From positions 1-57,632 of IMG/VR virus record IMGVR_UViG_3300028596_000014: a stretch of 57,632 nucleotides of DNA, one strand, 5' to 3'. The stretch is from a virus. Below are positions 4,013 through 57,632 of the stretch, piece after piece. The notes below the pieces were generated by a model. It searched no databases, was not told the origin of the DNA, and saw only the letters and a program-made list of their open reading frames with translations. The stretch's first letter is position 1; every line of letters starts with the position of its first letter. The translations under genes and the position numbers were made by a program.

Positions 4013-4043
4013 GTGCGGCAGCCGGTGAAGGGCGGCCGACGCG

Positions 4044-4114
4044 AGGCGCTGGCGGGAGTTGAACCCGCTTGTCCGGCTTTGCAGGCCGTTCCCTGGCCGT
4101 TCGGGCACAGCGCC
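4044..4114 (-). tRNA. tRNA-Cys (GCA)
   Basis: Cloverleaf on the minus strand: acceptor GGCGCTG / CAGCGCC, D stem CCC/GGG, anticodon loop CTGCAAA (GCA), T arm GCGGG-TTCAACT-CCCGC, discriminator T. The top anticodon-stem pair is an A-G mismatch. No CCA is encoded. One base separates it from the tRNA-Asn gene. Confidence 0.88.
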
Positions 4115-4115
4115 T

Positions 4116-4191
4116 TGGCTGGCCGCTCAGGATTTGAACCTGAACCTCCCTGGGTAACAACCAGGTGCGCTGCCAGTTACGCCAGCGGCCA
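4116..4191 (-). tRNA. tRNA-Asn (GTT)
   Basis: Cloverleaf on the minus strand: acceptor TGGCCGC / GCGGCCA, D stem GCG/CGC, anticodon loop TTGTTAC (GTT) on a CCTGG/CCAGG stem, T arm TCAGG-TTCAAAT-CCTGA, discriminator G and an encoded CCA (4118-4116). Confidence 0.92.
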
Positions 4192-4345: not shown

Positions 4346-4996
4346 TCAGAGGCTGATGTCGGAGAGCGACAGCGTCTCCGGCTCGGCAGCCTGCGGGCGG
4401 GCGGTGGCCGGGGCGTCGTCCTCGGCCGGGGTCTCGGCGGCCCCCTGCGCCGTCGTGAACTCCTTGACCGGCTCGGCGGCGACCTCGGCCACCTCGGGCT
4501 CGGCCATCTCGTTCTCGATCGAGTTGGCCTCGTCGTAGGGCACCTCGGCGGGCTCCTCGACGACCACGTCCTGCACCTCCTCGACGGCGGTGCCGGAAGC
4601 GGCGGCGTCGGCCACGTAACGGCTGTAGCCGTCGACCTGGCTGTTGGCCGGGCGGCCCCGGTACGGCTCGCCCAGCGAGACGTCGATGAGCACCTTGCGG
4701 CGCATCCACTGGTCGGGGTTGATCGAGAGCCGCTTCTTCGGCGTGGGCAGGCCCAGGCCGTTGAGGAAGCCGACGATCTTGAAGAGGCCCTTGCCGTTGG
4801 TGACGAGCCGGTCGATGAGCACGCTGCCCGCGTACGGCCCCTCCATGATCCGGAGCCAGACGGTGAACATGTCCGCCCCGGAGGCCTTCGACTTGCCGAG
4901 TTCGTAGTCGTCGACCTGCACGAGGTACTTACCGTCCGGGACGGTGTCACCGATCATCGGCTTGTAGCCGGACAGGTCCAGGGTGTATGCACCCAT
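4346..4996 (-). CDS. DUF669-like single-stranded-DNA-binding protein
   Basis: A 216 aa protein in two parts. Residues 1-130 are a beta-rich domain (GKYLVQVDDYELGKSK..., FTVWLRIMEGPYAGSVLIDRL) that resembles the DUF669/OB-fold proteins found beside Sak4-type ATPases. Residues 135-216 are an acidic, disordered tail ending LSLSDISL, like the tails SSBs use to recruit partners. It probably coats ssDNA during replication and annealing. It is encoded directly after the Sak4-like gene (37-base gap). Confidence 0.7.
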   Translation of the reverse strand: MGAYTLDLSGYKPMIGDTVPDGKYLVQVDDYELGKSKASGADMFTVWLRIMEGPYAGSVLIDRLVTNGKGLFKIVGFLNGLGLPTPKKRLSINPDQWMRRKVLIDVSLGEPYRGRPANSQVDGYSRYVADAAASGTAVEEVQDVVVEEPAEVPYDEANSIENEMAEPEVAEVAAEPVKEFTTAQGAAETPAEDDAPATARPQAAEPETLSLSDISL

Positions 4997-5033
4997 TTGT
5001 TTCTCTTTTCTGTGAGGGTTGTTGCTGTTTGTG

Positions 5034-5876
5034 CTACTTGCTTGCGGCCTTGGCCGCAGGCATACCGCCGATGCCGAGCGTCGTCCCGAGGGAGACGAGC
5101 GACAGCGGGGCCTTCCGACCCAGCACGGGCGGGATCCGACCGTGCAGGTGCGCCGGGACGCGCGCCTTGATGCGGTAGTCGATGTCGTTGCCGAACCGAG
5201 CGACGTGCCGCTCCTTGGGGTTGCCGTCCTCGTCGCTCTGGTCGAAGTCGGCCTCGGCCTCGCAGAACATCACGTAGTCCGGGGCGGCCAGGGTGATCGA
5301 CTGCGCACCCTTCTGCACGTCCACGGTGCGCGTGATGGTGTTGTTGACCTCGTCCTGCGTGACCTTCGTCTGCGCCGTCAGGATGACGTGCATCGGGTTG
5401 GGCCGCTCGGCGTCGGCCAGCGAGTACCAGAACGTCGGGATGTCGCTCATGATGTCGAGCGCCTGGCCCCAGGTGCGCTGGTCGGCCGGGGCGGTGCCCT
5501 GCCCGATTTCACGCACTGCCGTCTCGCTGTGGCCCAGCAGGAACCGCATCGTGGCCTTCTGGACGCCGGTCAGGGAGTCGAGGATGACCGCCTTGAAGCC
5601 GCCCTCGCCCTTGTCCAGCGCGTAGAAAATCTCGTCCAACTGCTTGATGGACTTGGGCCGGACGATGGTGATGTTCTTCGCCCACGGCGTCCCGACGAAC
5701 GACCGGGTGCCGCGCTCGCCGCGCATGTCCACCAGCAGCGTCTTGCCGAGGGCTGCGATCGTGCTCGCGAGGTACGTCTTGCCGCTGCCCTGGCTGCCGT
5801 GCAGCAGGAAGCGACCGTAGTCCTCACCGATGTCCTCGACGCCGTACAGCGTGAGGCCCGCGATCGTGTTGCTCAT
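5034..5876 (-). CDS. Sak4-like ATPase / single-strand annealing recombinase (AAA_24)
   Basis: 280 aa. The Walker A motif HGSQGSGKT spans residues 26-34, and a Walker B-like strand follows (FKAVILDSLTGV). The gene order exonuclease, this ATPase, SSB-like protein is the usual arrangement of Sak4-type recombination systems, in which the ATPase promotes strand annealing with its SSB partner. GGAG five bases before the ATG supports the start at 5876. The region upstream carries a degenerate TACGTATGT promoter motif. Confidence 0.82.
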   Translation of the reverse strand: MSNTIAGLTLYGVEDIGEDYGRFLLHGSQGSGKTYLASTIAALGKTLLVDMRGERGTRSFVGTPWAKNITIVRPKSIKQLDEIFYALDKGEGGFKAVILDSLTGVQKATMRFLLGHSETAVREIGQGTAPADQRTWGQALDIMSDIPTFWYSLADAERPNPMHVILTAQTKVTQDEVNNTITRTVDVQKGAQSITLAAPDYVMFCEAEADFDQSDEDGNPKERHVARFGNDIDYRIKARVPAHLHGRIPPVLGRKAPLSLVSLGTTLGIGGMPAAKAASK

Positions 5877-5921
5877 CTGTCTCCAGTTGTTCGTGGGTGA
5901 GGTCCCTCTGACCTTGACCCT

Positions 5922-5945
5922 ACATACGTAAGCATACGCTACCCG
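5922..5945 (-). promoter_or_regulatory. Degenerate cassette-type promoter
   Basis: The minus strand reads TATGCTTACGTATGTAGGGTC: the first ten bases of the conserved motif (TTACGTATGT, 5931-5922) are kept while the CAGCACA half is changed. It lies 46 bases before the Sak4-like gene. Confidence 0.5.
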
Positions 5946-5956
5946 GCGAGGGTCGG

Positions 5957-6154
5957 CTACTCGGCCTCCGGCGGGAGCGCTGCGCGCACCGCTGCGTCCT
6001 TGGATTCGAGCAGTTTGCGCAGCGCCACGGTCCTCTCGGGGCTGCGCGGCAGGCTCGCCACCAGGCCGTGAGCGAGCGTGTGGAACGGCTCGCTCACGGC
6101 CCGGAGCGGCTGCGGCAGGTGGTCGAACGCGAAGTACCTCAGGATCGGTTCCAT
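5957..6154 (-). CDS. Small conserved actinophage protein, 65 aa
   Basis: MEPILRYFAFDHLPQPLRAV... ERTVALRKLLESKDAAVRA. A protein with this pattern is common in actinobacteriophage genomes, usually near replication or tail genes, and has no known function. Predicted all-helical. It starts 9 bases after the exonuclease stop codon and is probably translated from the same message. Confidence 0.8.
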   Translation of the reverse strand: MEPILRYFAFDHLPQPLRAVSEPFHTLAHGLVASLPRSPERTVALRKLLESKDAAVRAALPPEAE

Positions 6155-6163
6155 CCAGGCAGG

Positions 6164-7297
6164 CTACGCCTTCTCGGCCAGGCCGTAGGAGGCGGGCTCC
6201 AGCCGCCGGTTGGTGCGCATCTCGTCGAGGCAGAGGTGCACGAAGTCGCAGCCCTTGCAGCCGGTGCGCGACAGGTTCCGGGCGACCGGCCCGCGCGTCG
6301 GGTCGTTGAACCGGCGCGACGCCTCCGCCTGGCCCTCGGCCGTGGCAACGGCCTCCTGGAGGTGGCCGCGCACCATGCGCGGGTTCACCGGGTCGAGCGT
6401 GCGCCGGTTCCACTTGTCGCGCTCGCCGGGCGCCTGCAACTTCTCGACCACCTTCGGGTCGCGCAGGTACTCGCCCGCCCCGCTGCCGTCCTTCTTGAGG
6501 CCCGGGAACGGCACCGGCTCCTCGGTGAAGTCGAGGTACTTGTCCAGGTCGTAGTCCGTGACGGACGCCGACAACTTGCCCGCCTTGGTGACGGCGGGCT
6601 GCGCGGCAGGCTTGCTGCGGGCACGGTCGTAGCCGACGGCCTTCACGTCGATCTTGAGGTGCACCGACACGCCCCAGGCGTAGAGGTGCAACTGCGAGTC
6701 GAGCAGGTCGTCCAGGGACTCGGTGGTGGCGATGGTGCCGTTGGTCTTGTGGTCGCGGACGACGACGAGCCCCAGGCGCTTGTCGTAGTAGACCTCGTCC
6801 ACGCGGCCCCGCAGCACGACGCCGGTGTCCGCGATCGGCACCTCGAACTGAACCTCGACCGCGAGAACCACCTCGTTCTCGCGGGACTCCCGGCCCCAGG
6901 CCGCCTCCCACCTGCGGTCCATCTCCGCGAGGTGCTCAGGCAGCGGCGCGCCCATCTTGTCCAGCCACCGCTCCTGGTCGTCGGCGGGCATCGCCTGCCA
7001 GTAGCGCGCGGCGGCGAGCAGCACGTCCGAGCCGGTGAGCGTGTCGGTGACCGGCAGGACCGGCCCCTTGTCGCCCGTGGAGACCTCGTCCGGCAGGTAC
7101 ATCGGCTCCTTGCCCTGGACCCGGCTGCGGGCGATGGCGTCGGCCGCGCGCAGCGCGTGCCACCACGAGCCGAACTCGCGGGTGATCAGATCGGTGACGG
7201 CGGCGGGCCGCAGGCGGCGGAGGCTGCTGTACTCGTACTTCTTGGGGCAGGCTCGGTAGGTGCCGAGGCTGCTCGGGGAGACTGCGATCGTGGGCAT
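6164..7297 (-). CDS. RecB/Cas4-type exonuclease (PD-(D/E)XK with Fe-S cluster)
   Basis: 377 aa. The N terminus SPSSLGTYRACPKKYEY and the C-terminal CKGCDFVHLC give the one-plus-three cysteine set of Cas4/AddB-type 4Fe-4S nucleases. The nuclease core is clear: GRVDEVYYD, then VVVRDHKTNG (Asp and Lys), then DSQLHLYAWG. It should resect DNA ends to expose strands for the Sak4-like annealing protein encoded next. AAGGAG eight bases before the ATG fixes the start at 7297. A long palindrome (7318-7375) sits in its leader or promoter. Confidence 0.85.
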   Translation of the reverse strand: MPTIAVSPSSLGTYRACPKKYEYSSLRRLRPAAVTDLITREFGSWWHALRAADAIARSRVQGKEPMYLPDEVSTGDKGPVLPVTDTLTGSDVLLAAARYWQAMPADDQERWLDKMGAPLPEHLAEMDRRWEAAWGRESRENEVVLAVEVQFEVPIADTGVVLRGRVDEVYYDKRLGLVVVRDHKTNGTIATTESLDDLLDSQLHLYAWGVSVHLKIDVKAVGYDRARSKPAAQPAVTKAGKLSASVTDYDLDKYLDFTEEPVPFPGLKKDGSGAGEYLRDPKVVEKLQAPGERDKWNRRTLDPVNPRMVRGHLQEAVATAEGQAEASRRFNDPTRGPVARNLSRTGCKGCDFVHLCLDEMRTNRRLEPASYGLAEKA

Positions 7298-7634: not shown

Positions 7635-9841
7635 ACCTCAGCCGCGAGACTACCATCAAGAGCGCGGTAGAGGCATACGAACGTGGGTATACGCCCGTGC
7701 CGGTCCGGCCGGGCACCAAGCGCCCCTTCGACTCCGCGTGGACCGCGCTGCACTACGACTCCGCCGAGCAGGTGCGCACGGCGTTCGGTGCGGAGGACTC
7801 TTCTCTGGGGATCGCCCTCGGCTCGCCGTCGGGCGGCCTGGTGGACGTCGACATCGACCACCCGAAGGCGCTCACGGCAGCGCAGATCTTCCTCCGGGGG
7901 ACGACGGCGGCCGTCAGCGGCCGGGCCTCGCGGCCGGGCAGCCACTACTGGTACGTGGTGCGCGACGGGCTGCCCGAGGGCACCACGCGGTGGCAGCACA
8001 GCGACCCGAAGCACCCGAAGCGGACCCTGGTCGAACTGCGGTCCACCGGCGGGCAGACGGTCATCGCGCCGTCTGTCCACCCCGACGGCGACGCCTACCT
8101 GTGGGACAGCGAGCCGTGGGGCGGCCCGGAGGGACCTGCCGTGATCGACGGCGGGGAACTGCGCAGCCGGGTCGGATGCATCGCACTCGGCACGCTGCTG
8201 GCCGTCGAGTGGCCCACGCGCGGCGGCCGTCACGACGCCTACCTGGCGCTCGCGGGGGCGCTGCTGGCGGAGGGCTACGACTCCACCCGCCGCGTCTCGC
8301 CGGTGTGGCGCAACCTCGCGCCGGGCATCGTCGCGGTGATCGCCCAGGCGACGCACGACGAGGAGGGGATGCAGACCCGCATCGAGCAGTCGATCGAGTC
8401 CACGCTCCAGAAGATCGCCCGGGGCAAGCCCACGCAGGGCTGGCCGACCCTGGCCCAGCACCTCCCGGAGGAGGTGGTGGACCGCTGCAAGGACTTCGTG
8501 TTCGGCATCGAGGAGGCCGAGGGCCACACCCGGCCGCCGACGGTCTCGTCTGACGACGCGTACGACCCGTACAGCGACGTTCAGACGCTCGGGGCAGCCG
8601 GGTCCGTCGAGGTGGATCTGAGCGCCTACAGCGACCAGGAGGACGACGAGGAGGACGACGGCACGCAGGACGCCGCGCAGTCCATCGCGTTCGAGCGGAT
8701 GGTCCAGCACGAGGTACTCCGGATGGAGGTCCGCGAGGTGGCGCGCGAGCGCTACGCCGAGGTCCGGGCCGAGAAGCAGTTGGCCGACAACCCGGAACTG
8801 GAGGCCCCAATCCGGACGGCGGCCGACGTGCTCACCGACGAACCGCCGGAGCCCGGCCGGATCGACCGGCTGCTGCCCTGGAACTCGTCGATGCTGCTCG
8901 TCGCACAGCGCAAGACGGGCAAGACGATCTGGCTCTGCAACCTGGCGCACTCGCTGCTCACCGGGGAGAAGTTCCTCAACGAGTTCGCGGTGCGCGCGCT
9001 GGAGCCGACGCAGAAGGTCGCGTTCCTCAACTTCGAGGTGAACGGCCCGATGCTCGCGGACGACCTGAGCAGGCGCGGCGTGCCGCTGGACCGCGTGCTC
9101 CAGGTGGACCTGCGCGGGCGGCTGAACCCGTTCAAGCACAAGTCCGTCCGGGCCAAGTTGACCAAGGCCCTGGTCAGCCACAACGTCGGGGCGATCTTCG
9201 TCGACACGTTCGCACAGGCGTTCACCGGTGAGTCCCAGAACGACACGGCCGACGTCGGCAACTGGCTGCGCGAACTCAACGAGTGGGTCCGGGCCGAGGT
9301 CGGTGCGATCGACCTGGTGCTTACGGCGCACGCAGGGTGGGACGGAGACCGGGCGCGCGGCTCGTCGGCGCTGGAGGACTGGGCCGACTCCATCGTGCAC
9401 CTGCGCCGCACGGACAAGGACGACATGACGTCCATGCGACAGATGCGGGCCACCGGCCGCGAGGACGTCCACCTGGAGTGGGGCAACCTGCCGTTCGACC
9501 AGGAGGAGCGTCGTACCTGGTACGAGGAGGCCGAGCAGGTGGACAAGGTCCAGGAGCAGTTGGACCGGATGAACGCGGCTGACGAGGCGATCCGCGACGC
9601 GCTGCGGATCGCCACCGAGCCCCTGCGGGCGCAGGAACTCTGCGACGCCGCCGGAGCACTCCCCGCCGGTCGGGGGATCAGCAACCGGGCACTCGACCAG
9701 GCGCGGCAGCGGCTCGTCACCCTGGGCGAAATTATGACGACGCGCGGCACCGGCCGGGGCTCGCCCCTGCTGCACGCGCTGGACCCGGACTACACCGAGG
9801 ACTACGGCCCGGACGAGCAGCCGGGCGAATCGGGCGAATAG
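7631..9841 (+). CDS. Bifunctional primase-polymerase / RepA-like helicase
   Basis: 736 aa. Residues 10-210 form a Prim-Pol domain: GYTPVPVRPGTKRP, the metal-binding DVDIDH, RASRPGSHYWYV and VELRSTGGQTVIAPS. Residues 400-640 form a RecA-fold ATPase of the RepA/AAA_25 type with Walker A AQRKTGKT and Walker B GAIFVDTF. The fusion should prime and unwind DNA at the phage fork. The linker (about 300-350) is highly acidic. AAAGGA lies 9-14 bases before the ATG. It is the first large gene of the plus-strand replication block. Confidence 0.88.
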   Translation: MNLSRETTIKSAVEAYERGYTPVPVRPGTKRPFDSAWTALHYDSAEQVRTAFGAEDSSLGIALGSPSGGLVDVDIDHPKALTAAQIFLRGTTAAVSGRASRPGSHYWYVVRDGLPEGTTRWQHSDPKHPKRTLVELRSTGGQTVIAPSVHPDGDAYLWDSEPWGGPEGPAVIDGGELRSRVGCIALGTLLAVEWPTRGGRHDAYLALAGALLAEGYDSTRRVSPVWRNLAPGIVAVIAQATHDEEGMQTRIEQSIESTLQKIARGKPTQGWPTLAQHLPEEVVDRCKDFVFGIEEAEGHTRPPTVSSDDAYDPYSDVQTLGAAGSVEVDLSAYSDQEDDEEDDGTQDAAQSIAFERMVQHEVLRMEVREVARERYAEVRAEKQLADNPELEAPIRTAADVLTDEPPEPGRIDRLLPWNSSMLLVAQRKTGKTIWLCNLAHSLLTGEKFLNEFAVRALEPTQKVAFLNFEVNGPMLADDLSRRGVPLDRVLQVDLRGRLNPFKHKSVRAKLTKALVSHNVGAIFVDTFAQAFTGESQNDTADVGNWLRELNEWVRAEVGAIDLVLTAHAGWDGDRARGSSALEDWADSIVHLRRTDKDDMTSMRQMRATGREDVHLEWGNLPFDQEERRTWYEEAEQVDKVQEQLDRMNAADEAIRDALRIATEPLRAQELCDAAGALPAGRGISNRALDQARQRLVTLGEIMTTRGTGRGSPLLHALDPDYTEDYGPDEQPGESGE

Positions 9842-9857
9842 GTCTCGTCTTTATTCC

Positions 9858-9894
9858 TCATCACCGCACTACCCCTTAGGTAGTGCGGTGATGA
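9858..9894. repeat. Dispersed long palindrome, diverged copy
   Basis: 16-bp arms (TCATCACCGCACTACC and complement) around CCTTA, just after the primase-helicase stop. The TCATCACC/GGTGATGA core is shared with the other copies, but the GTTCTTC arms are lost. It could end the primase-helicase transcript. Confidence 0.6.
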
Positions 9895-9935
9895 AGATAA
9901 ATACACACGTAACATGTAAACTGAGAGGCATGAGC

Positions 9936-10136
9936 ATGGACAGCAACCTCCGAGCCCTCCTGTACGGCAACCCGGCAACCTCGCCGTCTTCCTGGACCAA
10001 CGGTCGCGTCACGGTGCGCTACCGGGCCAGCGACGACGTGTGGACCTGGAGCACGAACGACGGGAAGAAGGGCTCCTCCGACATGGCCGAGACGGTCCTC
10101 AAGGCCATCGCCCCCTACCTGCGGAAGAACCCGTGA
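9936..10136 (+). CDS. Small hypothetical protein, 66 aa
   Basis: MDSNLRALLYGNPATSPSSW.... The ATG at 9936 is preferred over the one at 9930 because GAGAGG then lies at normal spacing. Beta-hairpin region VTVRYRASDDVWTWS then a helix (SDMAETVLKAIAPYL). Its stop overlaps the GTG of the helicase gene. A TACACACGTAACATG sequence just upstream resembles the TACGTA-type promoters. Function unknown. Confidence 0.65.
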   Translation: MDSNLRALLYGNPATSPSSWTNGRVTVRYRASDDVWTWSTNDGKKGSSDMAETVLKAIAPYLRKNP

Positions 10137-11755
10137 CGATCAACTTCAAGCCGCGCGGGGAGCCCCGCTACGAGCACCAGCGCCGGGTGCTGCGGCGCAT
10201 CATCGAGACGCGCGGCGTGTGCGCGCTGCTGTGCGACCCGGGCACCGGCAAGACGGCCGCCACCGTCGACTACATCAGCGCGCTCGCGCTCAAGACCGAC
10301 CGCACGGTGCGCGTGCTCGTGCTCGCACCGCTCGTCGCCCTGGACTCCTGGGTCGGGCAAACGGCGAAGTATGCGGCCGAAGGCGTGGCCGTGTGGGCGG
10401 AGGCCCTGGGCGGCTCCGTGACGCAGCGCGCCGAGGTGCTCGCCGCGCGCGGGCAGCGGTTCGATGCCCGGCTCGGGCACCGGCGCTCCATCGCCTGGGC
10501 CGGGCTCAACGTGGACGCCTACCAGTTCCGCGACAACCTGCCCGGCCGGACCAACCTGTGGGCCGACATGATCGGCGGCGGGCCGGGCATCGTGCTGGAG
10601 GTGCTGTCTCTCGACTCGCTGAGCCAGCGCCGCGAGGTGAGCCGCAGCAAGACCGTGGCCGACGTGCTGCACAAGGCGGTCGAGCGGTTCGGGCCGGACG
10701 TGATCGTGGTGGACGAGAGCCACCGCATCAAGTCCGCGAGCGCCAACGTGAGCCGGATGGCCGCCCGGCTGAGCAAGATGGCACCCCGGCGCCTGATCCT
10801 GACCGGGACCGTGATGCCGCACAGCCCGATGGACGTGTGGGCGCAGTGGCGGTTCCTGGAGCCGATGGCGTTCAACGTCCCGGACCCGAAGCGGCCCGGC
10901 GAGATGAAGGCGATGCCGTTCGGCCAGTTCCAGGAGCGCTACGGCGTGTTCGGCGGCTGGCAGGGGCGGCAGATCATCGGGTACCAGAACCTCGGTGAGA
11001 TGCAGCGCGTCATGGACCAGAACAGCATCGTCGTCCGCAAGGAGGACGCGCTGGACCTGCCCGAGACCGTCGACATCACGGTGCCGGTGCACCTGTCGCC
11101 CAAGGAGCAGACGGCCTACGACCAGATGAAGGACCAGTTGGCCGCTGTGCTCGGCGGCGGCGCCGTCGCCACGGTGCCGAACCGGCTCGCGCAGATGATG
11201 CGCCTGCGGCAGATCACGAGCGGCTACCTGCCCGACGACGCCGGGGTGACCCGGACCATTGGGGACTCGAAGGTGGCGGCGGCCCGGGGCATCGTGTGCA
11301 CGACGCTCGCCGGGGAGAAGCGCGTGGTGGTTTTCGCGCACTTCCGGCAGGAGATTGCCGACCTGGAGGCGGCGATCGGGGCGGCCGAGGGCAAGGACAC
11401 CGTGCTCATGACGATCACCGGCGACACGGCCCCGGCCGAGCGCGAGCGGCTGCGCAAGCGGTTCGGCTCGGACGAGGACGTGCGGATCGTGCTGATCGCC
11501 CAGATGCGCACGCTGTCGCTCGCGGTGAACGAACTGGTCACGGCGTCGCACGCCGTCTACACGTCGATCAGCGAGCGCCGGGACGATTGGGTGCAGAGCC
11601 GCGACCGGCTGCACCGGATCGGCCAGAAGCGGTCGGTCACGTTCTGGAACGTGATGGTGCCGCGCTCGGTGGATGAGGCGATCTACCAGGCGCACCTGAC
11701 GCGCGAGTCCGTCGAGAACGCGGTACTGCGCTACATCGAGAAGGGCGAGGACTAG
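10133..11755 (+). CDS. SNF2-type superfamily 2 helicase
   Basis: 540 aa from a GTG start that overlaps the previous stop (GTGA). Ordered helicase motifs are visible: Q-motif region YEHQRRVLRR, motif I DPGTGKTA, motif II DESHR, motif III LTGTVMP, and motif VI RDRLHRIGQKRSV, whose HRIGQ is diagnostic of SNF2-like enzymes. It probably remodels DNA or protein-DNA complexes at forks. A promoter-terminator composite follows at 11766. Confidence 0.9.
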   Translation: MTINFKPRGEPRYEHQRRVLRRIIETRGVCALLCDPGTGKTAATVDYISALALKTDRTVRVLVLAPLVALDSWVGQTAKYAAEGVAVWAEALGGSVTQRAEVLAARGQRFDARLGHRRSIAWAGLNVDAYQFRDNLPGRTNLWADMIGGGPGIVLEVLSLDSLSQRREVSRSKTVADVLHKAVERFGPDVIVVDESHRIKSASANVSRMAARLSKMAPRRLILTGTVMPHSPMDVWAQWRFLEPMAFNVPDPKRPGEMKAMPFGQFQERYGVFGGWQGRQIIGYQNLGEMQRVMDQNSIVVRKEDALDLPETVDITVPVHLSPKEQTAYDQMKDQLAAVLGGGAVATVPNRLAQMMRLRQITSGYLPDDAGVTRTIGDSKVAAARGIVCTTLAGEKRVVVFAHFRQEIADLEAAIGAAEGKDTVLMTITGDTAPAERERLRKRFGSDEDVRIVLIAQMRTLSLAVNELVTASHAVYTSISERRDDWVQSRDRLHRIGQKRSVTFWNVMVPRSVDEAIYQAHLTRESVENAVLRYIEKGED

Positions 11756-19014: not shown

Positions 19015-20087
19015 AGGTCGCAGTAATCCCATCCGATACGGGAGCGTGCGGATACTTCCGTCTCATCTGGCCCGCCGAGGCGGTCCGTAGCGTCCGGCCC
19101 GACTGGACCGTGAACGTTTACCGCCCGCAGGACGTGAAGGTCGGCATGGGTCCCCGGGGCGTATCCGTTCGCGGCCTGGACCTGACCGACCTGGACATGG
19201 TCGTGATGCAGCGCGTCGGCACGCCCCGGCAGGTCGACATGGCACGCGCGCTCCAGGCGGCCGGTATCGCCGTCGTCATCGACGTGGACGACGCGCTGTA
19301 CGCCATCGACCCGGACAGCGGCTCGTACGCGGCGTGGAACGACCGCCGCTCCGCGACGCACTGGTCCAACCTGGAGGAGGCCTGCCGTCGGGCGGACCTG
19401 GTCACGGTGACCACCGACGCGCTCGCGCGGCACTACGCGCGGCACAGCCGGGTCGAGCGCATCCCGAACGGGCTGCCCGACGGCGCCTACGAGGAGCCGG
19501 TGGCGCTCTCCGGGCTGACGGACCACGTCGTGCTCGGCTGGTCCGGGGTGGCCGTGTCGCACCCGCACGACCTGGAGGTCGTGGGCGCCGCTGTGGCGAA
19601 CGTTCTCGCGTCCGACCCCCAGGTGTCCGTCAAGGTCGTGGGAGACGCTGCGTGGGCCGCAGGCGTGCTCCAGGTGCCCGAGGACCGGCTCATCGACGGA
19701 GGCCTGCACCCGCTGAACTACTACCACGCCGCGCTGGCGGGTACCGACGTGGGTATGGTGCCGCTCGCGAACACCAAGTTCAACGAGGCCAAGTCGGCGC
19801 TCAAGGCGCTGGAGTACCTCGGCGTCGGTGCTCGCGTCGTCGCGAGCCGCACCCCGGCCAACGTCGAGTTGACGCTGAGCGCGGGCACGGACGCCATGTC
19901 CATCTGCACGACGCCCGAAGGGTGGGAGCGCGCGCTGCGGCAGCAGATCGCCGCCGTGCGCTGGCACCGCGAGCACGGCACGAACCCCGGACGTGACGTC
20001 TGGTACATGAGCATCCTCGGAAGGGCCGAGGAGTGGGCGGCTGCGTGGGAACGCGCGGCGGCCCGGCGGAAGAACCTGACCCGGTAG
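19011..20087 (+). CDS. GT-B fold glycosyltransferase (GT4-like)
   Basis: 358 aa. It has the two-domain layout of GT-B enzymes: an N-terminal Rossmann half (VAVIPSDTGACGYFRLIWPA, IAVVIDVDDALYAI, RADLVTVTTDALARHY, VERIPNGLPD) and a C-terminal nucleotide-sugar half (VVLGWSGVAVSHPHD, GMVPLANTKFNEAKSALKAL, EYLGVGARVVAS), the last part matching GT4 consensus. Target unknown: it could act on the hydroxylated bases made by the TET enzyme, on host wall glycan or on virion protein. GTG start coupled to the zinc-finger gene. Confidence 0.8.
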   Translation: MKVAVIPSDTGACGYFRLIWPAEAVRSVRPDWTVNVYRPQDVKVGMGPRGVSVRGLDLTDLDMVVMQRVGTPRQVDMARALQAAGIAVVIDVDDALYAIDPDSGSYAAWNDRRSATHWSNLEEACRRADLVTVTTDALARHYARHSRVERIPNGLPDGAYEEPVALSGLTDHVVLGWSGVAVSHPHDLEVVGAAVANVLASDPQVSVKVVGDAAWAAGVLQVPEDRLIDGGLHPLNYYHAALAGTDVGMVPLANTKFNEAKSALKALEYLGVGARVVASRTPANVELTLSAGTDAMSICTTPEGWERALRQQIAAVRWHREHGTNPGRDVWYMSILGRAEEWAAAWERAAARRKNLTR

Positions 20088-44478: not shown

Positions 44479-46083
44479 TTACCGGCCGGGGATGCGGCGC
44501 GACGTCACGCGGGCGCTGCCGGTCCGGGCGCGCTCGGGCTTCCGGGCCGCAGCCGGGTTGCCCAACTTCATCACCGCGTCGCCCTTGAGCCGCGTCTGCG
44601 CCTGCGTGTGGGCGTCCACCATGTCGTCGTGCGCGCCGGTCGGGAAGTTGCGGTGCTCGGTGAGGAACTCCGTCACCCACTCGTAGCCGGGCTCGGACGG
44701 GTGCGGGATGAGCGTGTTGCGCGCCTCCAGCGTCGGAGTGATCGCGCGGGCGCGCACCTCCTTGCCGTCGCGCGGGCTGACCGGAATCAGGCCGTCGATC
44801 TTGCGGCGCATCGTGTCGATGACCGCCGTGCCGTTGGCCTTGTCCTCGACGAGCCGAGCCGGGACGTACGGCGCGGCGAAGGCGAGCATCTCGGCCAGCG
44901 TCTGTGTGAACGTCCACCGGCCGCGCACCTGCGCCGTGAGGATCCGGTTCGGCCCGCGCCGGACCCACCGCTGCCCCACCACGTAGTCGCTGTCGCTGTT
45001 GCCCTTGAACGCGCAGTCCCACGACTCCACCCAGGTGTCGCCCGCGTGCGGGGCGATGTCGAGCAGCACGATGTCCTCGCCGTTGGCGAGCGCGGGGTTG
45101 GTCGTCCAGTAGCGCCACCACGCCATGTCGAAGATCGCTCCCCGGCTCGGAGCGGGCCGCTGCTGGTACAGCGCGGACCACACGTACGAGCCGACGTCGC
45201 GCTTGACCCCCTCCCACCGGGCCAGGGCCTCCTCAGGCGTCTCGTCCACGAGCGGGGTCAGCAGCGGCTCGCCCTCGGCTCGGCCGAGCACGTCGTCCTC
45301 CTCAGCGAGCGCCGGGAACGAGATGACCTCCCACTCGTCCGGGTCGCCCTCGTGCTCGGCCGACAGCAGCCGCCCGATGAAGTCGTCCTCGTGCCAGCGC
45401 GTGCCGATGGCGATCACCAGCGCGGGCGGCTCCAGGCGGGTGCTCGCCGTCGAGAGCCACCAGTCCCAGACGGACTGCCGCAGCACCTCGGAGTGGGCCG
45501 CCCCGAAGTCCTTGATCAGGTCGTCCAGCAGCAGCACCTTGAAGCCACGGCCGGTGATCGAGCCGCCGACGGACCGCGACAGCACCCCGCCGCCCTCGGC
45601 CGTCTCCCACTCCTGCGCGGCCCCGGCGTCGGGCGCGATGCGGATACCGAGTTCGGGGTGCTCCGTGACCCACCGGCGCACGGCGCGGCCCCACGCGGTA
45701 GACAGGCTGGCCTCATGCGAGACCATGCCGATCTTCCACTCGGGGTGGCGCCGTAGCAGCCACAGCGGCAGGTACTGGCTCGCCAGCGTGGACTTGCCCG
45801 CGCGGGGCGGCATCGAGATGGCGATGCGCCGGTTGCCGCCCGCCTCCACGTCCTTGACCGCCTGCTCCAGCCGGGCGGCGAGGTAGTCGAGGTGCGGGCG
45901 GCTGCGGTACCCGTCGTCCAACTCCTGGGCCTGCTCCAGCGGGTTGGCAGGCAGGTTGACCTGGCTCGCCGGGAGCGCGTCGAGCAGCGCGCGGGCAGCG
46001 GGCTCGGGCAGGCCGTCGAGCAGGTCGTACACCTGCTCTTCGGTGAGCCCGGCCAGCAGGCGGGTCAGTTCGTCGTCGGACAA
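44479..46083 (-). CDS. terL: Terminase large subunit
   Basis: 534 aa, TTG start supported by GAGGAG five bases upstream. ATPase: Walker A MPPRAGKST, Walker B VLLLDDLI. Nuclease: LLDIAPHAGDTWVES (first acidic centre), then LVEDKANG and AHDDMVDA. This is the Terminase_6 type. It cuts and packages the genome, here directly downstream of the DNA-modification genes, so modified DNA could be its substrate. Confidence 0.94.
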   Translation of the reverse strand: MSDDELTRLLAGLTEEQVYDLLDGLPEPAARALLDALPASQVNLPANPLEQAQELDDGYRSRPHLDYLAARLEQAVKDVEAGGNRRIAISMPPRAGKSTLASQYLPLWLLRRHPEWKIGMVSHEASLSTAWGRAVRRWVTEHPELGIRIAPDAGAAQEWETAEGGGVLSRSVGGSITGRGFKVLLLDDLIKDFGAAHSEVLRQSVWDWWLSTASTRLEPPALVIAIGTRWHEDDFIGRLLSAEHEGDPDEWEVISFPALAEEDDVLGRAEGEPLLTPLVDETPEEALARWEGVKRDVGSYVWSALYQQRPAPSRGAIFDMAWWRYWTTNPALANGEDIVLLDIAPHAGDTWVESWDCAFKGNSDSDYVVGQRWVRRGPNRILTAQVRGRWTFTQTLAEMLAFAAPYVPARLVEDKANGTAVIDTMRRKIDGLIPVSPRDGKEVRARAITPTLEARNTLIPHPSEPGYEWVTEFLTEHRNFPTGAHDDMVDAHTQAQTRLKGDAVMKLGNPAAARKPERARTGSARVTSRRIPGR

Positions 46084-46092
46084 CGGGTCTCC

Positions 46093-46881
46093 TCAGCGGA
46101 CGGGGACGGGCGGCAGATCGAGGCCGGGCAGGCGCCGCAGGGTGACCTCGGCGGTGCCCTTCGCGGCCGACCGGCGGTTGGTCAGCAGGTCGGGCCACTC
46201 TGCCACGAGTCGGTGCGTGCCTTCCTCCTGGTAGGCGGCGTCGCGGTAGACCTGCATCCCGCCCGGCTCGGTGTAGAAGCGGGTCTTGAGCGTCACGTTG
46301 TCGAGGCGGAGCACCGCGCCGTCGCGCAGGAAGTGCCGGATCGTGCGCTCGTAGTCCTCCTTCTCGTCGAAGTTCAGCACCTCGGTGGGGTCGTGGCGCA
46401 GGGTCATCCCCCAGAACGTGCCGACGATGTGCCGGAACCCGAGGTGCGCCCGGTTCGCCATGAAGTACCCGTTCCGCACGGGGTACACGCCCCACAGCGA
46501 CACACCCTGCTGCCCGGCCATGAGAAACGCACCCTGGATCAGGCCGTCCACGTTGGTCACCGACACGAGCCGCCCGGCGTCGAGCCGCTCGATGGCCCGG
46601 ATGTCGTCGTCCGCCTGCACGAGCCGGGTGCCACGCGGGTACTGCGGCTGGATCACGTTGCGGGCGCCGCGCAGGCCCGACCGGCTGCCGTGCCCGTACA
46701 CGGCGATGTCGGCGTAGCCCGCGTCGTCGAGCGCGGCGCGGTACGTGGCGACCTCCTCGTGCAGGACCCAGACGTGCACGGCACCCCGGGGCACCCCGCC
46801 GTCGAGCAGGACCGGCAGCGTGCACTTGACCAGCAGTGGCGACCGCTCCCGCGAGGGGATCGCCACGTAGTAGCCCGTCAC
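46093..46881 (-). CDS. TET-associated glycosyltransferase (TAGT, GT-A fold)
   Basis: 262 aa. Nucleotide-sugar motif at the N terminus (YYVAIPSRERSPLL), then RGARNVIQPQYPRGTRLV and the metal-binding QADDDIR (Asp91-93), as in the TET-associated GT family predicted to add sugars to hydroxymethylated bases. Later segments (GYFMANRAHLGFRHIVGTFW, YERTIRHFL) complete the acceptor side. GTG start overlaps the TET stop by 4 bases, so both enzymes are made together. Confidence 0.82.
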   Translation of the reverse strand: MTGYYVAIPSRERSPLLVKCTLPVLLDGGVPRGAVHVWVLHEEVATYRAALDDAGYADIAVYGHGSRSGLRGARNVIQPQYPRGTRLVQADDDIRAIERLDAGRLVSVTNVDGLIQGAFLMAGQQGVSLWGVYPVRNGYFMANRAHLGFRHIVGTFWGMTLRHDPTEVLNFDEKEDYERTIRHFLRDGAVLRLDNVTLKTRFYTEPGGMQVYRDAAYQEEGTHRLVAEWPDLLTNRRSAAKGTAEVTLRRLPGLDLPPVPVR

Positions 46882-47798
46882 GACTCGGCTGCGTTCTCGT
46901 TGCGGATCGCCGCATTGATGCGCGGCTGCCCGGTGCGCTTGCCCTGCATCAGCCGCTCTGGCTTGTAGCCGGGCGCGGCCATGCGCTCCTCCCGCTCGGT
47001 GCGCTTCCGCCGGGCGAGCGCCGTCTCAGCGGCGTAGGTGTGGCAGTCCTTGAGGCCCTGGAGCGCGTAGTAGACCACGCTGATTCGGTAGCCGCCCGGC
47101 ACGACGACGCGCATCGGGGTGACGCCGTGCACGAGCCCCTTGCCGTAGAACATCACGGCGTAGCCGTCGCGGCAGGGCACCACCATGTCGTACTCGGGGA
47201 TGTGCAGGTGCCCGCCCGCCACGCCCCGGCGCATCACGGGCATGGCCGACCACGCCTCGAAGTTGTTGCCGTCGCGGTGGTAGGGCAGCGCGGACTCGCT
47301 GTTGATGACGCCGCTGGTCCACAGGGACTCGTCGCTCAGGCGCCACTCGGGCAGCACCTTCTCGATCGTCTCCCTGTCGGCCAGTTCGATCTCCGGGAAC
47401 GCCTCACCGAGGGCCGCCCCCATCGTCTCGCTGTAGGAGACCAGGTAGGCGTGTACGTCGGGCTGCTCGTCGGCGAGCCGGGCGAGCATGCACGCCTCCT
47501 GGCCCATCATCGGCTTGCGCGGCCGGTTGCCGAACGTCCGCGACGTGTTGCGCACGCCGGACGCGCGCGGCGTCGGGCTGGAGCCGCCCATCTTCACCTG
47601 GAGGATGTTGCGCCGGAAGGCGGCCCGGTCGGGCATGGCGAGGTTGGCGAGCACGGGCGCGCCGGTGTCGGCGTCCACGTACAGCACCTCTTCGCGGAAG
47701 GTCGGGTCGAGCGCGGGCGCCTGCGTGCCGACCAGCGCGCCCGCCTCCTCGTAGGAGAGGACGCGCTGCACCGGCACGCGCGGGATGTCGCTACGCAT
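46878..47798 (-). CDS. TET/JBP-family 2-oxoglutarate/Fe(II) dioxygenase
   Basis: 306 aa. The double-stranded beta-helix core is clear: LPYHRDGNNF gives His174 and Asp176 (HxD), GLVHGVTP gives His224, and GYRISVVYY gives Arg238, which binds 2-oxoglutarate. The preceding TSRTFGNRPRKPMM region is characteristic of TET/JBP proteins. Such enzymes hydroxylate the 5-methyl group of cytosine or thymine in DNA; phage members are known to oxidise 5mC for later glycosylation. GGAG seven bases before the ATG; 8-base overlap with the ParB-like gene. Confidence 0.87.
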   Translation of the reverse strand: MRSDIPRVPVQRVLSYEEAGALVGTQAPALDPTFREEVLYVDADTGAPVLANLAMPDRAAFRRNILQVKMGGSSPTPRASGVRNTSRTFGNRPRKPMMGQEACMLARLADEQPDVHAYLVSYSETMGAALGEAFPEIELADRETIEKVLPEWRLSDESLWTSGVINSESALPYHRDGNNFEAWSAMPVMRRGVAGGHLHIPEYDMVVPCRDGYAVMFYGKGLVHGVTPMRVVVPGGYRISVVYYALQGLKDCHTYAAETALARRKRTEREERMAAPGYKPERLMQGKRTGQPRINAAIRNENAAES

Positions 47799-48561
47799 CG
47801 AACGTCTCCACGCCCAGCGCCTCGCTGATCGGGTCGAAGTCGGCCGCGTCCGGCTCGGCCTCGTCGGCGGGCGCCTCAACACCGGGGAACTCCTGAGCCA
47901 GCCAGATCTGCACAGCGCCCGCGTTGTTGTCGACGCCGTAGCGCTCGCGCAGCGCCTTGAGCCGCGCCTGGATGACGGGGTACTCGCTGACGGCGTAGTC
48001 CAGGATGACGAGCCGCCGCCCCTCGGCTGCGTACGTGTCGCTGTCCTTCTTGGTCGGCACGTCGTCCTTCTTGGTGACCTTCGGCGCGGGGGTGGCGTCC
48101 AGTTCCTCCAGCCGGGCGCGCAGGTCGTCGGTGTCGTTCTCGGAGAAGCCGACGCCGGTGTAGTCGCCCAGGTTGTCGAGCAGGTCGAGCAGGCTCTCGT
48201 CCACCCAGCCGCCGAGTTCGGTGGTGCGGTTCAGCGCGATCAGCGCGGCGCGCGCCTCCGCGTCGTCCTTGGACGCCCACCCCACGATGACCGGCACGAG
48301 CCAGTGGCCGCCCGCGTCCACGCGCACGCCCTCGGGCGGAGCGTCGCCCCGGTCGCGCCGGGCCACGAGCGACTTCTTCCGCCCGTGCCCGCTGATGATG
48401 TAGCCGGTGCGGTCGTCCCGGGCGATCTGGTCGATCACGCCGAAGCGCTCCAGCGAGGCGTCGATGGTCTCCACGCTGTGGGACTTGGGGTTGGCCGGGT
48501 CCTCCAGCAGGTGGTCGAGCGGGATGTACTCCGTGCGGCGGGGAGCGGTCTCGGTCGTCAT
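47791..48561 (-). CDS. ParB-like nuclease-fold protein
   Basis: 256 aa. N-terminal ParB/Srx domain: EYIPLDHLLEDPANPKSHSV, ASLERFGVIDQIARD, and the nucleotide-binding ISGHGRKKSL. The C-terminal half is helical with an acidic end; it lacks a classical ParB HTH. In the middle of a DNA-modification operon, and with no ParA nearby, it is more likely a DNA-targeting or nucleotide-using partner of the modification enzymes than a plasmid partition factor. ATGA overlap. Confidence 0.8.
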   Translation of the reverse strand: MTTETAPRRTEYIPLDHLLEDPANPKSHSVETIDASLERFGVIDQIARDDRTGYIISGHGRKKSLVARRDRGDAPPEGVRVDAGGHWLVPVIVGWASKDDAEARAALIALNRTTELGGWVDESLLDLLDNLGDYTGVGFSENDTDDLRARLEELDATPAPKVTKKDDVPTKKDSDTYAAEGRRLVILDYAVSEYPVIQARLKALRERYGVDNNAGAVQIWLAQEFPGVEAPADEAEPDAADFDPISEALGVETFDA

Positions 48562-49217
48562 GCGGTGCCTCCGTAGATCTGGGCCGCCCGGTCGGGTCGG
48601 CCGCTGGTGTTCTTGCCGTGCCAGTGCCACGTCCAGGTCCGGCGGTTGAGGTGCTCGAACTTGGCCCCCAGGCCGAGCAGCCGCAGCCACAGCGCCCAGT
48701 CCTCGCAGTCGGGGTGGGGCCACGTCTCGCTGTTCGGCTCCGGGAAGCCGCCCGCCTGCACGAACAGGTCGGTGCGGACCAGCGCTGTGACCGGCACGAA
48801 GTTGGCGCTCAGCAGCCGCTCCGGGTCGAAGGGGCGGCCCTCGGCGCCGAGCGGGTCCCGGCTGTTGTCCAGGACGCCGCCCACGTTCAGGTGGAACCAC
48901 GGGTAGACGACGTCGGCCCCGGTCGCGTCGGCGTGCTCGATGAGCGCCTGGACGTGCCCCGGGTCGAACTCGTCGTCGTCGTCGAGGAAGGCGATCCACG
49001 GCGGCCGGAGGCCCGCGTTCAGGCTGTTGACCACGGCGAGGTTGCGCATGGCCGCAGGCCCCTTGCCGTCCGTGTCCACCTCGATAGCCCCGGCAACGAG
49101 CACGTCCTCGCGGATCGACTTGCACGCGCGCTTGAGCAGCGCGTCGCGGCCGGGGATGGTCGGGATGACGACGAGCGCCTGCACGTCGTCCATGGAGAGC
49201 CGCTTCGCCTCAGCCAC
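48558..49217 (-). CDS. GT-A family 2-like glycosyltransferase
   Basis: 219 aa from a GTG. ALVVIPTIPGRDALLKRACK at the N terminus, GKGPAAMRNLAVVNS, then WIAFLDDDDEFDP with the DxD-type Asp cluster at 79-82, and CEDWALWLRLLGLGAKF near the end: a compact GT2-like enzyme. Likely adds the first or second sugar to the modified base alongside the TAGT enzyme. It overlaps the methyltransferase gene by 8 bases and the ParB-like gene by 4. Confidence 0.82.
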   Translation of the reverse strand: MAEAKRLSMDDVQALVVIPTIPGRDALLKRACKSIREDVLVAGAIEVDTDGKGPAAMRNLAVVNSLNAGLRPPWIAFLDDDDEFDPGHVQALIEHADATGADVVYPWFHLNVGGVLDNSRDPLGAEGRPFDPERLLSANFVPVTALVRTDLFVQAGGFPEPNSETWPHPDCEDWALWLRLLGLGAKFEHLNRRTWTWHWHGKNTSGRPDRAAQIYGGTA

Positions 49218-49809
49218 GGAGCCGTCCTCCCTTCCACTGGAGGAACGTCACGCCGCGCGGCGTCGGCAGGCTGAGCCGGTTGAAGCCCATCTCCGCCGCC
49301 GCGTCCGCGACCTCGCGTGCGAACTGCGGGTACTTGGTCCCGGCCGGGTCGCCGCAGTCGTGCACGCCGACGATCGCGCCCGGGGTGAGCAGCGGGCGGA
49401 TGGCGCGCAGTTCGGGCACGCGCAACTCGAACAGCGAGTCGAGCCAGGCGAAGCCGACCTCGCCCGGGTTGCGCTGCTGGAGGGCCGCGAGGCCGGGCAG
49501 GCTCTCCATCTGGACCACCTGCACCGGCAGCCCTGCCACGCGGTCGGCCGTCGCGGCGACGCGCGCCGTGTCCACCTCGAACGTGACCAGGTGCCCGACG
49601 CCTGCGGTGAACAGCACCTGCCCGATCAGTTCGGCCGTCTGCCCGAAGGCGGAGCCGGTCTCGATGACCAGGTCCGGCCGCAGCGCCTCGACGAACGCGG
49701 CAGCGAGGCGGCTGACCTCAATCTCGGTCGAGTCGCTGTCCGGGCTGTGCCAGCGCTCGGGGTGCGGGCAGTCGCGACGGGACGGGGTGAAGCGGGATTC
49801 GAGTTCCAT
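49210..49809 (-). CDS. SAM-dependent methyltransferase (Methyltransf_24 / sugar-O-MTase type)
   Basis: 199 aa. Rossmann motif I LVIETGSAFGQTAELI, acidic LVTFEVDTARV, then VGFAWLDSLFELRVPELRAI and PGAIVGVHDCGDP. This is the pattern of small-molecule and sugar methyltransferases. It has none of the PCQ/ENV motifs of cytosine-C5 DNA methyltransferases, so it is unlikely to make the 5mC substrate; it more probably methylates the transferred sugar. First enzyme of the modification operon. Confidence 0.75.
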   Translation of the reverse strand: MELESRFTPSRRDCPHPERWHSPDSDSTEIEVSRLAAAFVEALRPDLVIETGSAFGQTAELIGQVLFTAGVGHLVTFEVDTARVAATADRVAGLPVQVVQMESLPGLAALQQRNPGEVGFAWLDSLFELRVPELRAIRPLLTPGAIVGVHDCGDPAGTKYPQFAREVADAAAEMGFNRLSLPTPRGVTFLQWKGGRLRG

Positions 49810-57107: not shown

Positions 57108-57632
57108 CAGATCCTCTTCTCGTTGATGCGCCGCTGGAGCGCCATGATCGCCTTGGACTCTCGCGACAGTACCCCGTCGACCGGGGTACCCAGCCAGCGC
57201 TGGAGCGCGCGCACGGTGTCCTCACCGAGCAGCCCGTCCCGCTTGCTGACCGGCATCCCGATGCGCTCCTGGAGCGCCGTGATGACCCGGCTGCCCTCGG
57301 CCCGGTTGTCGGCCACCCACTGCCAGCCGGACGTGAGGCCGGGGTTGCCCGCCTTCCACGAGCGGGCCTGGCTGGAGACGACGCCGTCCGTCGGCGTGCC
57401 CAGCGCGCGCTGGAGGCGGCGCGTGGTGCTGCCGCCCCAGAACCCGTCCACCGCGATGCGCCCGGTCGAGGGCTTCGGCGGGGTGATGGGGTTGTCCACC
57501 TCCTCGGCGCCGTCGTCGGCGCGGTACTCGCCCCGGTTGATGTCGTCGATGAGCGCCTGCGCGAACCGGCCGGGGCACGCCGTCTGCGCGCCCGGGGCGT
57601 CCTGGTGGCCGCCCGCGAGCCGGGCCGACTTC
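57107..57632 (-). CDS. Endolysin, C-terminal part (continues from 541)
   Basis: 3' portion of the amidase gene. Residues about 175-309 carry two peptidoglycan-binding repeats of the form DGFWGGSTTRRLQRALGTPT and DGLLGEDTVRALQRWLGTPV, each with the DGxxG...T..LQ..LGTP pattern, followed by DG and a helix (ESKAIMALQRRI). They should anchor the enzyme to wall glycan. Bases 57507-57632 repeat 12-137. Confidence 0.9.
   Translation of the reverse strand, partial: KSARLAGGHQDAPGAQTACPGRFAQALIDDINRGEYRADDGAEEVDNPITPPKPSTGRIAVDGFWGGSTTRRLQRALGTPTDGVVSSQARSWKAGNPGLTSGWQWVADNRAEGSRVITALQERIGMPVSKRDGLLGEDTVRALQRWLGTPVDGVLSRESKAIMALQRRINEKRI
57507..57632. repeat. Terminal redundancy, right copy
   Basis: Identical to 12-137. 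The sequence just left of it (57496-57506) differs from bases 1-11, which instead form a fold-back. Confidence 0.95.

Follow-up and report, generated by a model that had tools for sequence, protein, structure and literature searches.

We analysed a stretch of viral DNA of 57,632 nt, the IMG/VR virus record IMGVR_UViG_3300028596_000014 (G+C 70%), hereafter called the window, which carries a perfect direct repeat of 126 bp at both genome ends (12-137 = 57507-57632). Because of this end repeat, the genome is best taken as circularly closed and complete, with a length of about 57.5 kb, and gene absences in the window therefore hold for the entire genome. On the minus strand, six genes follow each other: MT (49210-49809), a SAM-dependent methyltransferase that is Methyltransf_24/CmcI-like (small-molecule or sugar O-methyltransferase type); GT2 (48558-49217), a GT2-type glycosyltransferase and the other half of an MT-GT2 cassette; ParB (47791-48561), a ParB/Srx-fold protein; TET (46878-47798), a TET/JBP-type Fe(II)/2-oxoglutarate dioxygenase and predicted DNA hydroxylase of, likely, thymine or, possibly, 5-methylcytosine; TAGT (46093-46881), a GT-A glycosyltransferase with a hydroxymethyl base as its predicted substrate; and TerL (44479-46083), the terminase large subunit (Terminase_6N/6C above cut-off; phrog_38, E 4e-93). 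From MT to TAGT the neighbouring genes overlap by 8, 4, 8 and 4 nt, a gap of 9 nt separates TAGT from TerL, and all six genes were also chosen by a codon-usage gene caller. The likely start of TET is the ATG at 47798, since this codon overlaps the stop of ParB and the alignment with relatives begins at it; the listed open reading frame, which begins at a GTG at 47882, is too long. Coordinates, overlaps and gene caller agree with the first-pass annotation, which had described five overlapping genes at 46093-49809 ending just before terminase, and confirm that the DNA-decorating gene set in this interval is real.

The TET protein scored 16.4 bits against the Pfam profile Tet_JBP, under the cut-off of 34.9 (a detection threshold, not a biological feature), and because of this it is the fold and the active site that assign it to TET/JBP. 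Tet_JBP was the sole Pfam family matched by all members (16/16) of the first TET alignment, and the PDB profile matches were to NgTet1 (5cg8/4lt5). The top Foldseek match of the AF2 model (pLDDT 82) was NgTET1 (E 1.9e-11), and the 26 best matches comprised NgTET1, TET2, CcTET and CMD1, ahead of other 2-oxoglutarate oxygenases, i.e., the double-stranded beta-helix fold of the model is nearest to TET/JBP proteins. Both the HxD...H iron site and the 2-oxoglutarate-binding arginine are present, and H173-x-D175, H223 and R237 (residue 1 being the one that follows the ATG) are identical in all 37 aligned relatives. The TET/JBP-type oxygenase with a complete HxD..H..R site that had been read from the sequence was thus borne out, and Foldseek places the protein encoded at 46878 within TET/JBP, contrary to the outcome in HMM or structure searches that the first-pass annotation had named as speaking against its reading. 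The PHROG name for TET, 'queuine tRNA-ribosyltransferase', was rejected, because fold and active site are those of TET/JBP.

The other four proteins also belong to the families to which they had been assigned at first reading. TAGT reached 21.2 bits against Pfam TAGT (PF20691; cut-off 27.5), a sister protein (locus L007) scored 35.1 bits, above that cut-off, and the profile matched 12 of 14 aligned family members. The acidic motif of TAGT, described earlier as DDD, is QADDD, with two aspartates invariant in 14 sequences, and the best viral Foldseek matches of its AF2 model (pLDDT 88.6) were the TAGT of cyanophage S-CBWM1 (E 2.9e-23), other TAGT-domain proteins and beta-glucosyl-HMC-alpha-glucosyltransferase; the protein thus combines a profile match, a GT-A fold with acidic motif and a TET neighbour, the features of TAGT membership. 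GT2, with its DDDD inside FLDDDDE, matched Glycos_transf_2 above cut-off (36.5 bits). MT matched Methyltransf_24 above cut-off (31 bits) and RMNT_CmcI at 20.9 bits (below the cut-off of 23.2), and its match in the structure database was catechol O-methyltransferase (5zy5, E 2e-4). ParB was recognized through PHROGs (phrog_620, E 2.8e-22; phrog_6392, E 2e-19), with zero matches in Pfam and no match in a sequence search against solved structures. Among the proposed profile assignments, therefore, Glycos_transf_2 and Methyltransf_24 stood above their cut-offs, whereas Tet_JBP and TAGT remained below theirs and Pfam was silent on ParB.

A tblastn search with TET returned 89 annotated phage records, mostly from Mycobacterium, Microbacterium, Arthrobacter and Gordonia phages, and an alignment search yielded 257 IMG/VR stretches with a TET relative, of which 80 were kept. 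Relatives occurred in 2 of 84,980 bacterial and archaeal genomes, which marks this TET as belonging to a phage family. The Mycobacterium phages that were opened among the TET records are Bclasvirinae. After dereplication of the TET loci at 90% identity, ParB stood immediately upstream of TET in 65 of the 66 loci with enough upstream sequence, and ParB is thus an almost constant partner of TET. The coupling with ParB, which had been considered possibly new, is consequently near-universal in this TET family and has also been reported for Rhodococcus phage Tonitrus (PMC11955845); what is new here is that a glycan cassette accompanies this particular gene set, and that glycosyl and amino-acid branches are interchanged behind a single type of TET. 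Gordonia phage Wooper and phage Tonitrus have ParB-TET-aGPT-Pplase2/ADDT-kinase operons (PMC11955845), and they resemble the window in their orthologous TET (46-48% identity), in the position of ParB directly or nearly upstream and in the terminase that comes after the module, but where they have ADDT and a kinase the window has TAGT. Mycobacteriophages Acadian and Indlovu and Arthrobacter phage Altadena share with the window the order ParB-TET-TAGT (TAGT 36-44% identical), followed in the two mycobacteriophages by terminase; all three add a PIG-L deacetylase, and the mycobacteriophages also a kinase, whereas the window instead has MT-GT2 upstream. Among further cultured relatives, Lilmac1015 has TAGT with PIG-L, like Altadena, Kozie has ADDT with a kinase, and Nigel has a kinase only.

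Two alternatives were observed downstream of ParB-TET: TAGT, in some loci accompanied by a PIG-L deacetylase, and a P-loop kinase, alone or together with ADDT (amino acid:DNA transferase). A kinase or ADDT was present in 2 of 25 TAGT loci vs 32 of 42 loci without TAGT (Fisher 3e-8), i.e., TAGT and kinase/ADDT replace each other behind a constant ParB-TET core, in near mutual exclusion. Of 50 TET contigs, 28 had Ploopntkinase3 (PF18751) and 18 had ADDT, both above cut-off, and the two genes lie mostly directly after TET; the window has neither an hmU DNA kinase nor ADDT, both of which are present in sister operons. The ADDT of the TET phages belongs to the family of gp51 of Pseudomonas phage M6, and the TET-linked kinases share phrog_800 with the 5-hmdU DNA kinases of M6 and Salmonella phage ViI. 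BLASTP of the TET-linked kinases against the M6 and ViI kinases gave no match, so that they are joined through phrog_800 only, and as the characterised 5-hmdU kinases are placed in a different Pfam family (PF18748 vs PF18751), the base on which the TET-linked kinases would act is deduced indirectly. On a maximum-likelihood tree of TET, 7 changes suffice to explain the TAGT state, against a mean of 18 after shuffling; the window TET and its two closest relatives fall into an 11-member clade together with eight kinase/ADDT phages (support 100/100).

Thymine is more likely than 5-methylcytosine to be the substrate of this TET, judging from the gene content of the window and its relatives. The 5-methylcytosine initially favoured did not hold up, because a C5-methyltransferase (PF00145) was found neither in the closed genome nor in the 15 closest relatives (control genomes were positive in 10 of 14 cases), and because the same TET family serves thymidine-type kinase/ADDT operons that have no hydroxymethylase. 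Searches for a dUMP-hydroxymethylase (PF00303) found none in the 50 TET contigs and none in the window, using a profile that detects M6 gp58 and ViI gp60 as positive controls. In this respect the TET phages examined differ from M6 and ViI, in which hmdU is made at the nucleotide level and the PF00303 enzyme is present, although sister operons share the ADDT family with M6 and the phrog_800 kinase family with both. Since the kinase/ADDT phages have no PF00303 enzyme, their hydroxymethyl group would have to come from elsewhere, most simply from TET, and the nesting of the window TET among such phages suggests, as the simplest reading of genome content, that it has the same thymine activity.

The solved TET relatives NgTET1 and TET2, to which the protein is closest in structure, act mainly on 5mC, and a host C5-methyltransferase that supplies this base is conceivable. 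On such a cytosine route, DNA methylated at C5 by host or phage would be oxidised by TET to 5hmC, glycosylated by TAGT and GT2, and O-methylated by MT. Phage systems with C5-methyltransferase, TET and glycosyltransferase that make glycosylated cytosine have been reported (Burke et al. 2021, PNAS, as presented in PMC12730594), and to the extent that they are described there, the window shares with them a TET and a TET-associated glycosyltransferase, but has no C5-methyltransferase and a TET that matches the canonical Tet_JBP profile weakly. We regard the cytosine route as improbable, given the missing C5-methyltransferase and its scarcity elsewhere (7 of 50 more distant TET contigs, 2.1-31 kb from TET and never adjoining), and given that downstream TAGT is exchanged for enzymes of thymidine hypermodification. 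Cyanophage S-CBWM1, which has a canonical TET and TAGT, is likewise without PF00145, so that absence of the C5-methyltransferase alone does not discriminate between the two bases; a search from S-CBWM1 for canonical phage TETs returned S-CBWM1 only and thus gave no 5mC-type control set. That TET might be a regulator or act on another substrate altogether, in phages with DNA that is not hypermodified, could be entertained because the literature searched gave no chemistry of this TET family and no base analysis of virions from such phages, but the fixed pairing of ParB-TET with enzymes that consume hydroxymethyl groups (ADDT, kinase, TAGT) across many loci makes it very unlikely.

Very probably, then, the phage oxidises and glycosylates a pyrimidine of its DNA, and on balance we favour ParB-TET-TAGT as a DNA-modification unit that would convert thymine to hmU and further to glycosyl-hmU in virion DNA. 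TET would hydroxylate the 5-methyl group of thymine in phage DNA after replication, yielding 5-hydroxymethyluracil, TAGT would add a sugar to the hydroxymethyl group, and the resulting base-J-like O-glycosyl-hmU would, until the DNA is packaged, shield it from nucleases of the host; recruitment of the enzymes to the DNA or to replicating or packaging complexes may be the task of ParB. We infer the thymine substrate, the sugar, the protective purpose and the role of ParB from observed gene content, families, folds, conservation and module exchange. Hydroxymethyl pyrimidines made by TET/JBP enzymes were reportedly predicted by Iyer et al. in 2013 to be starting points for complex modifications. 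In the base J pathway of kinetoplastids, JBP1/2 hydroxylate thymine and a J-glucosyltransferase then O-glycosylates it; the logic predicted for the phage would be analogous, thymine hydroxylation followed by O-glycosylation in DNA, whereas the enzymes are only distantly related and the genome is that of a phage, not of a eukaryote. For phage Tonitrus, the authors of the genome suggested thymidine hypermodification for the ParB, Tet-like, aGPT-Pplase2 and kinase genes (PMC11955845). Should TET indeed act on thymine, the base J pathway would have a prokaryotic counterpart in these phages; their TET enzymes, being specific for thymine, could be put to use in DNA labelling and would help to explain how specificity diverged in TET/JBP enzymes.

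The MT-GT2 pair requires separate consideration. Among the TET relatives examined, it lies inside the operon in the window and in G002 (TET 85%) only; in the closest relative (G001, TET 89% identical), MT (85%) and GT2 (67%) are located about 26 kb from TET, directly after a gene that matches the GT4-like glycosyltransferase of the window (19110-20087, plus strand; Glyco_trans_1_4 17 bits, weak), so that GT4-MT-GT2 are contiguous. MT and GT2 adjoin each other in G001, G002, L112 (order GT4-MT-GT2) and L113 (MT-GT2-sulfotransferase-like), GT2 is near MT in L114, and purifying selection acts on the pair (dN < dS). TET was absent from L112, L113 and L114 by a profile that matched three positive controls, although these contigs may be incomplete. 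The distance from TET in G001 and the occurrence in TET-less contigs suggest a movable glycan cassette that need not act on DNA, and it may target either DNA or virion protein. The initial view of a DNA-modification operon was therefore upheld in part: TET/JBP and TAGT are supported by Foldseek, the 5mC substrate is not, and the membership of MT-GT2 is doubtful.

If all five genes nevertheless formed one pathway, TAGT would place the first sugar on hmU, GT2 would add a second and MT would O-methylate the glycan. In line with this, MT, GT2 and ParB form a series of overlapping genes, the same order is kept in G002, and an FkbM-type methyltransferase is found between ParB and a distant TET in cyanophage MED4-117; the operon of G002 further contains a UDP-galactopyranose mutase, which lies between TAGT and terminase, and a sulfotransferase-like gene. 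The single pathway proposed at first reading is, however, not supported: the location of MT-GT2 next to GT4 in G001 and the TET-less L112-L114, in which MT has a GT2-type neighbour, weigh against it, and we consider it rather doubtful. The mutase of G002 hints at galactofuranose as the sugar. Evenly balanced, in our judgement, is the proposal that MT-GT2, together with GT4, glycosylates virion proteins and shares the operon by chance: mycobacteriophages encode glycosyltransferases that act on their capsid and tail proteins (PMC12363180), GT4 lies near tail genes, the cassette adjoins GT4 and is found in phages that have no TET, and Arthrobacter phage Atuin, likewise TET-less, again has GT4- and GT2-like genes. 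The operon location in two genomes, which suggests at least co-regulation, and the possible incompleteness of the TET-less contigs weigh against it. MT-GT2 would thus be an accessory glycan cassette, either for elongation or O-methylation of the sugar on DNA or, with somewhat higher probability, for decoration of virion proteins; both are compatible with hmU as the product of TET.

As a broader and more tentative proposal, to which we give a little less than even weight, a widespread family of actinobacterial phages may make base-J-like, O-glycosylated hmU through a thymine-specific TET with exchanged glycosyl, amino-acid and phosphate branches, the sugar of a sister phage perhaps being galactofuranose and the glycan of the window perhaps a methylated disaccharide. 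The exchange of modules on the ParB-TET core makes this question testable in cultured phages of Microbacterium, Arthrobacter, Gordonia and Mycobacterium smegmatis. In public records, these TETs are named 'queuine tRNA-ribosyltransferase' and the linked kinases 'terminase small subunit', and the present assignments correct the database names of both.

The TET-associated glycosyltransferase (TAGT) of the window (46093-46881) and its counterpart in the sister phage L008 (8939-9757) share an identity of only about 33-35%, whereas ParB, the TET/JBP-type dioxygenase (TET) and terminase are 76-85% identical between the two phages. Judged by this difference, the glycosyltransferase has undergone replacement, which perhaps altered the sugar. 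L008 carries a UDP-galactopyranose mutase gene (9754-10884; GLF, 231 bits) flanked by TAGT and terminase, which suggests that the DNA sugar of this phage is galactofuranose.

In several TET phages with the alternative kinase/ADDT module (L018, L009, L025, L088 and L090), an Asp/Asn beta-hydroxylase-like gene (2656-3759 in L018) is flanked by ADDT and kinase, and in two further stretches (L001 and L005) an FAD oxidoreductase occupies this interval; genes inserted here probably serve the tailoring of the attached amino acid. In cyanophage MED4-117 (L122, 7614-9738), ParB, an FkbM-type methyltransferase and TET lie consecutively, followed by a small ORF and terminase, and a methyl ether on the hydroxymethyl base is possible. 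The ParB of this cyanophage is annotated as a DNA methylase. Streptomyces phage KimJongPhill (L016), which is without a window-type TET, has a GT-methyltransferase-GT cassette (4631-6463) and, away from it, a weak thymidylate-synthase-family match.

Some public names are misleading: TETs of phrog_6059 go by "queuine tRNA-ribosyltransferase", with one called DpdA-like, while "terminase small subunit" is the name given to the kinases of phrog_800, among them M6 gp54 and ViI gp61 of thymidine-hypermodifying phages. Examples lie at L004 776-2382, L011 813-3588 and L124 11686-12249.

A perfect 126-bp direct repeat, one copy per end (12-137 and 57507-57632), marks the window as a closed contig that holds a complete genome of about 57.5 kb. 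Adjacent tRNA-Cys(gca) and tRNA-Asn(gtt) genes lie at 4043-4191; in Microbacterium phages Margaery and MO526, a tRNA-Cys gene is found close to the TET operon.
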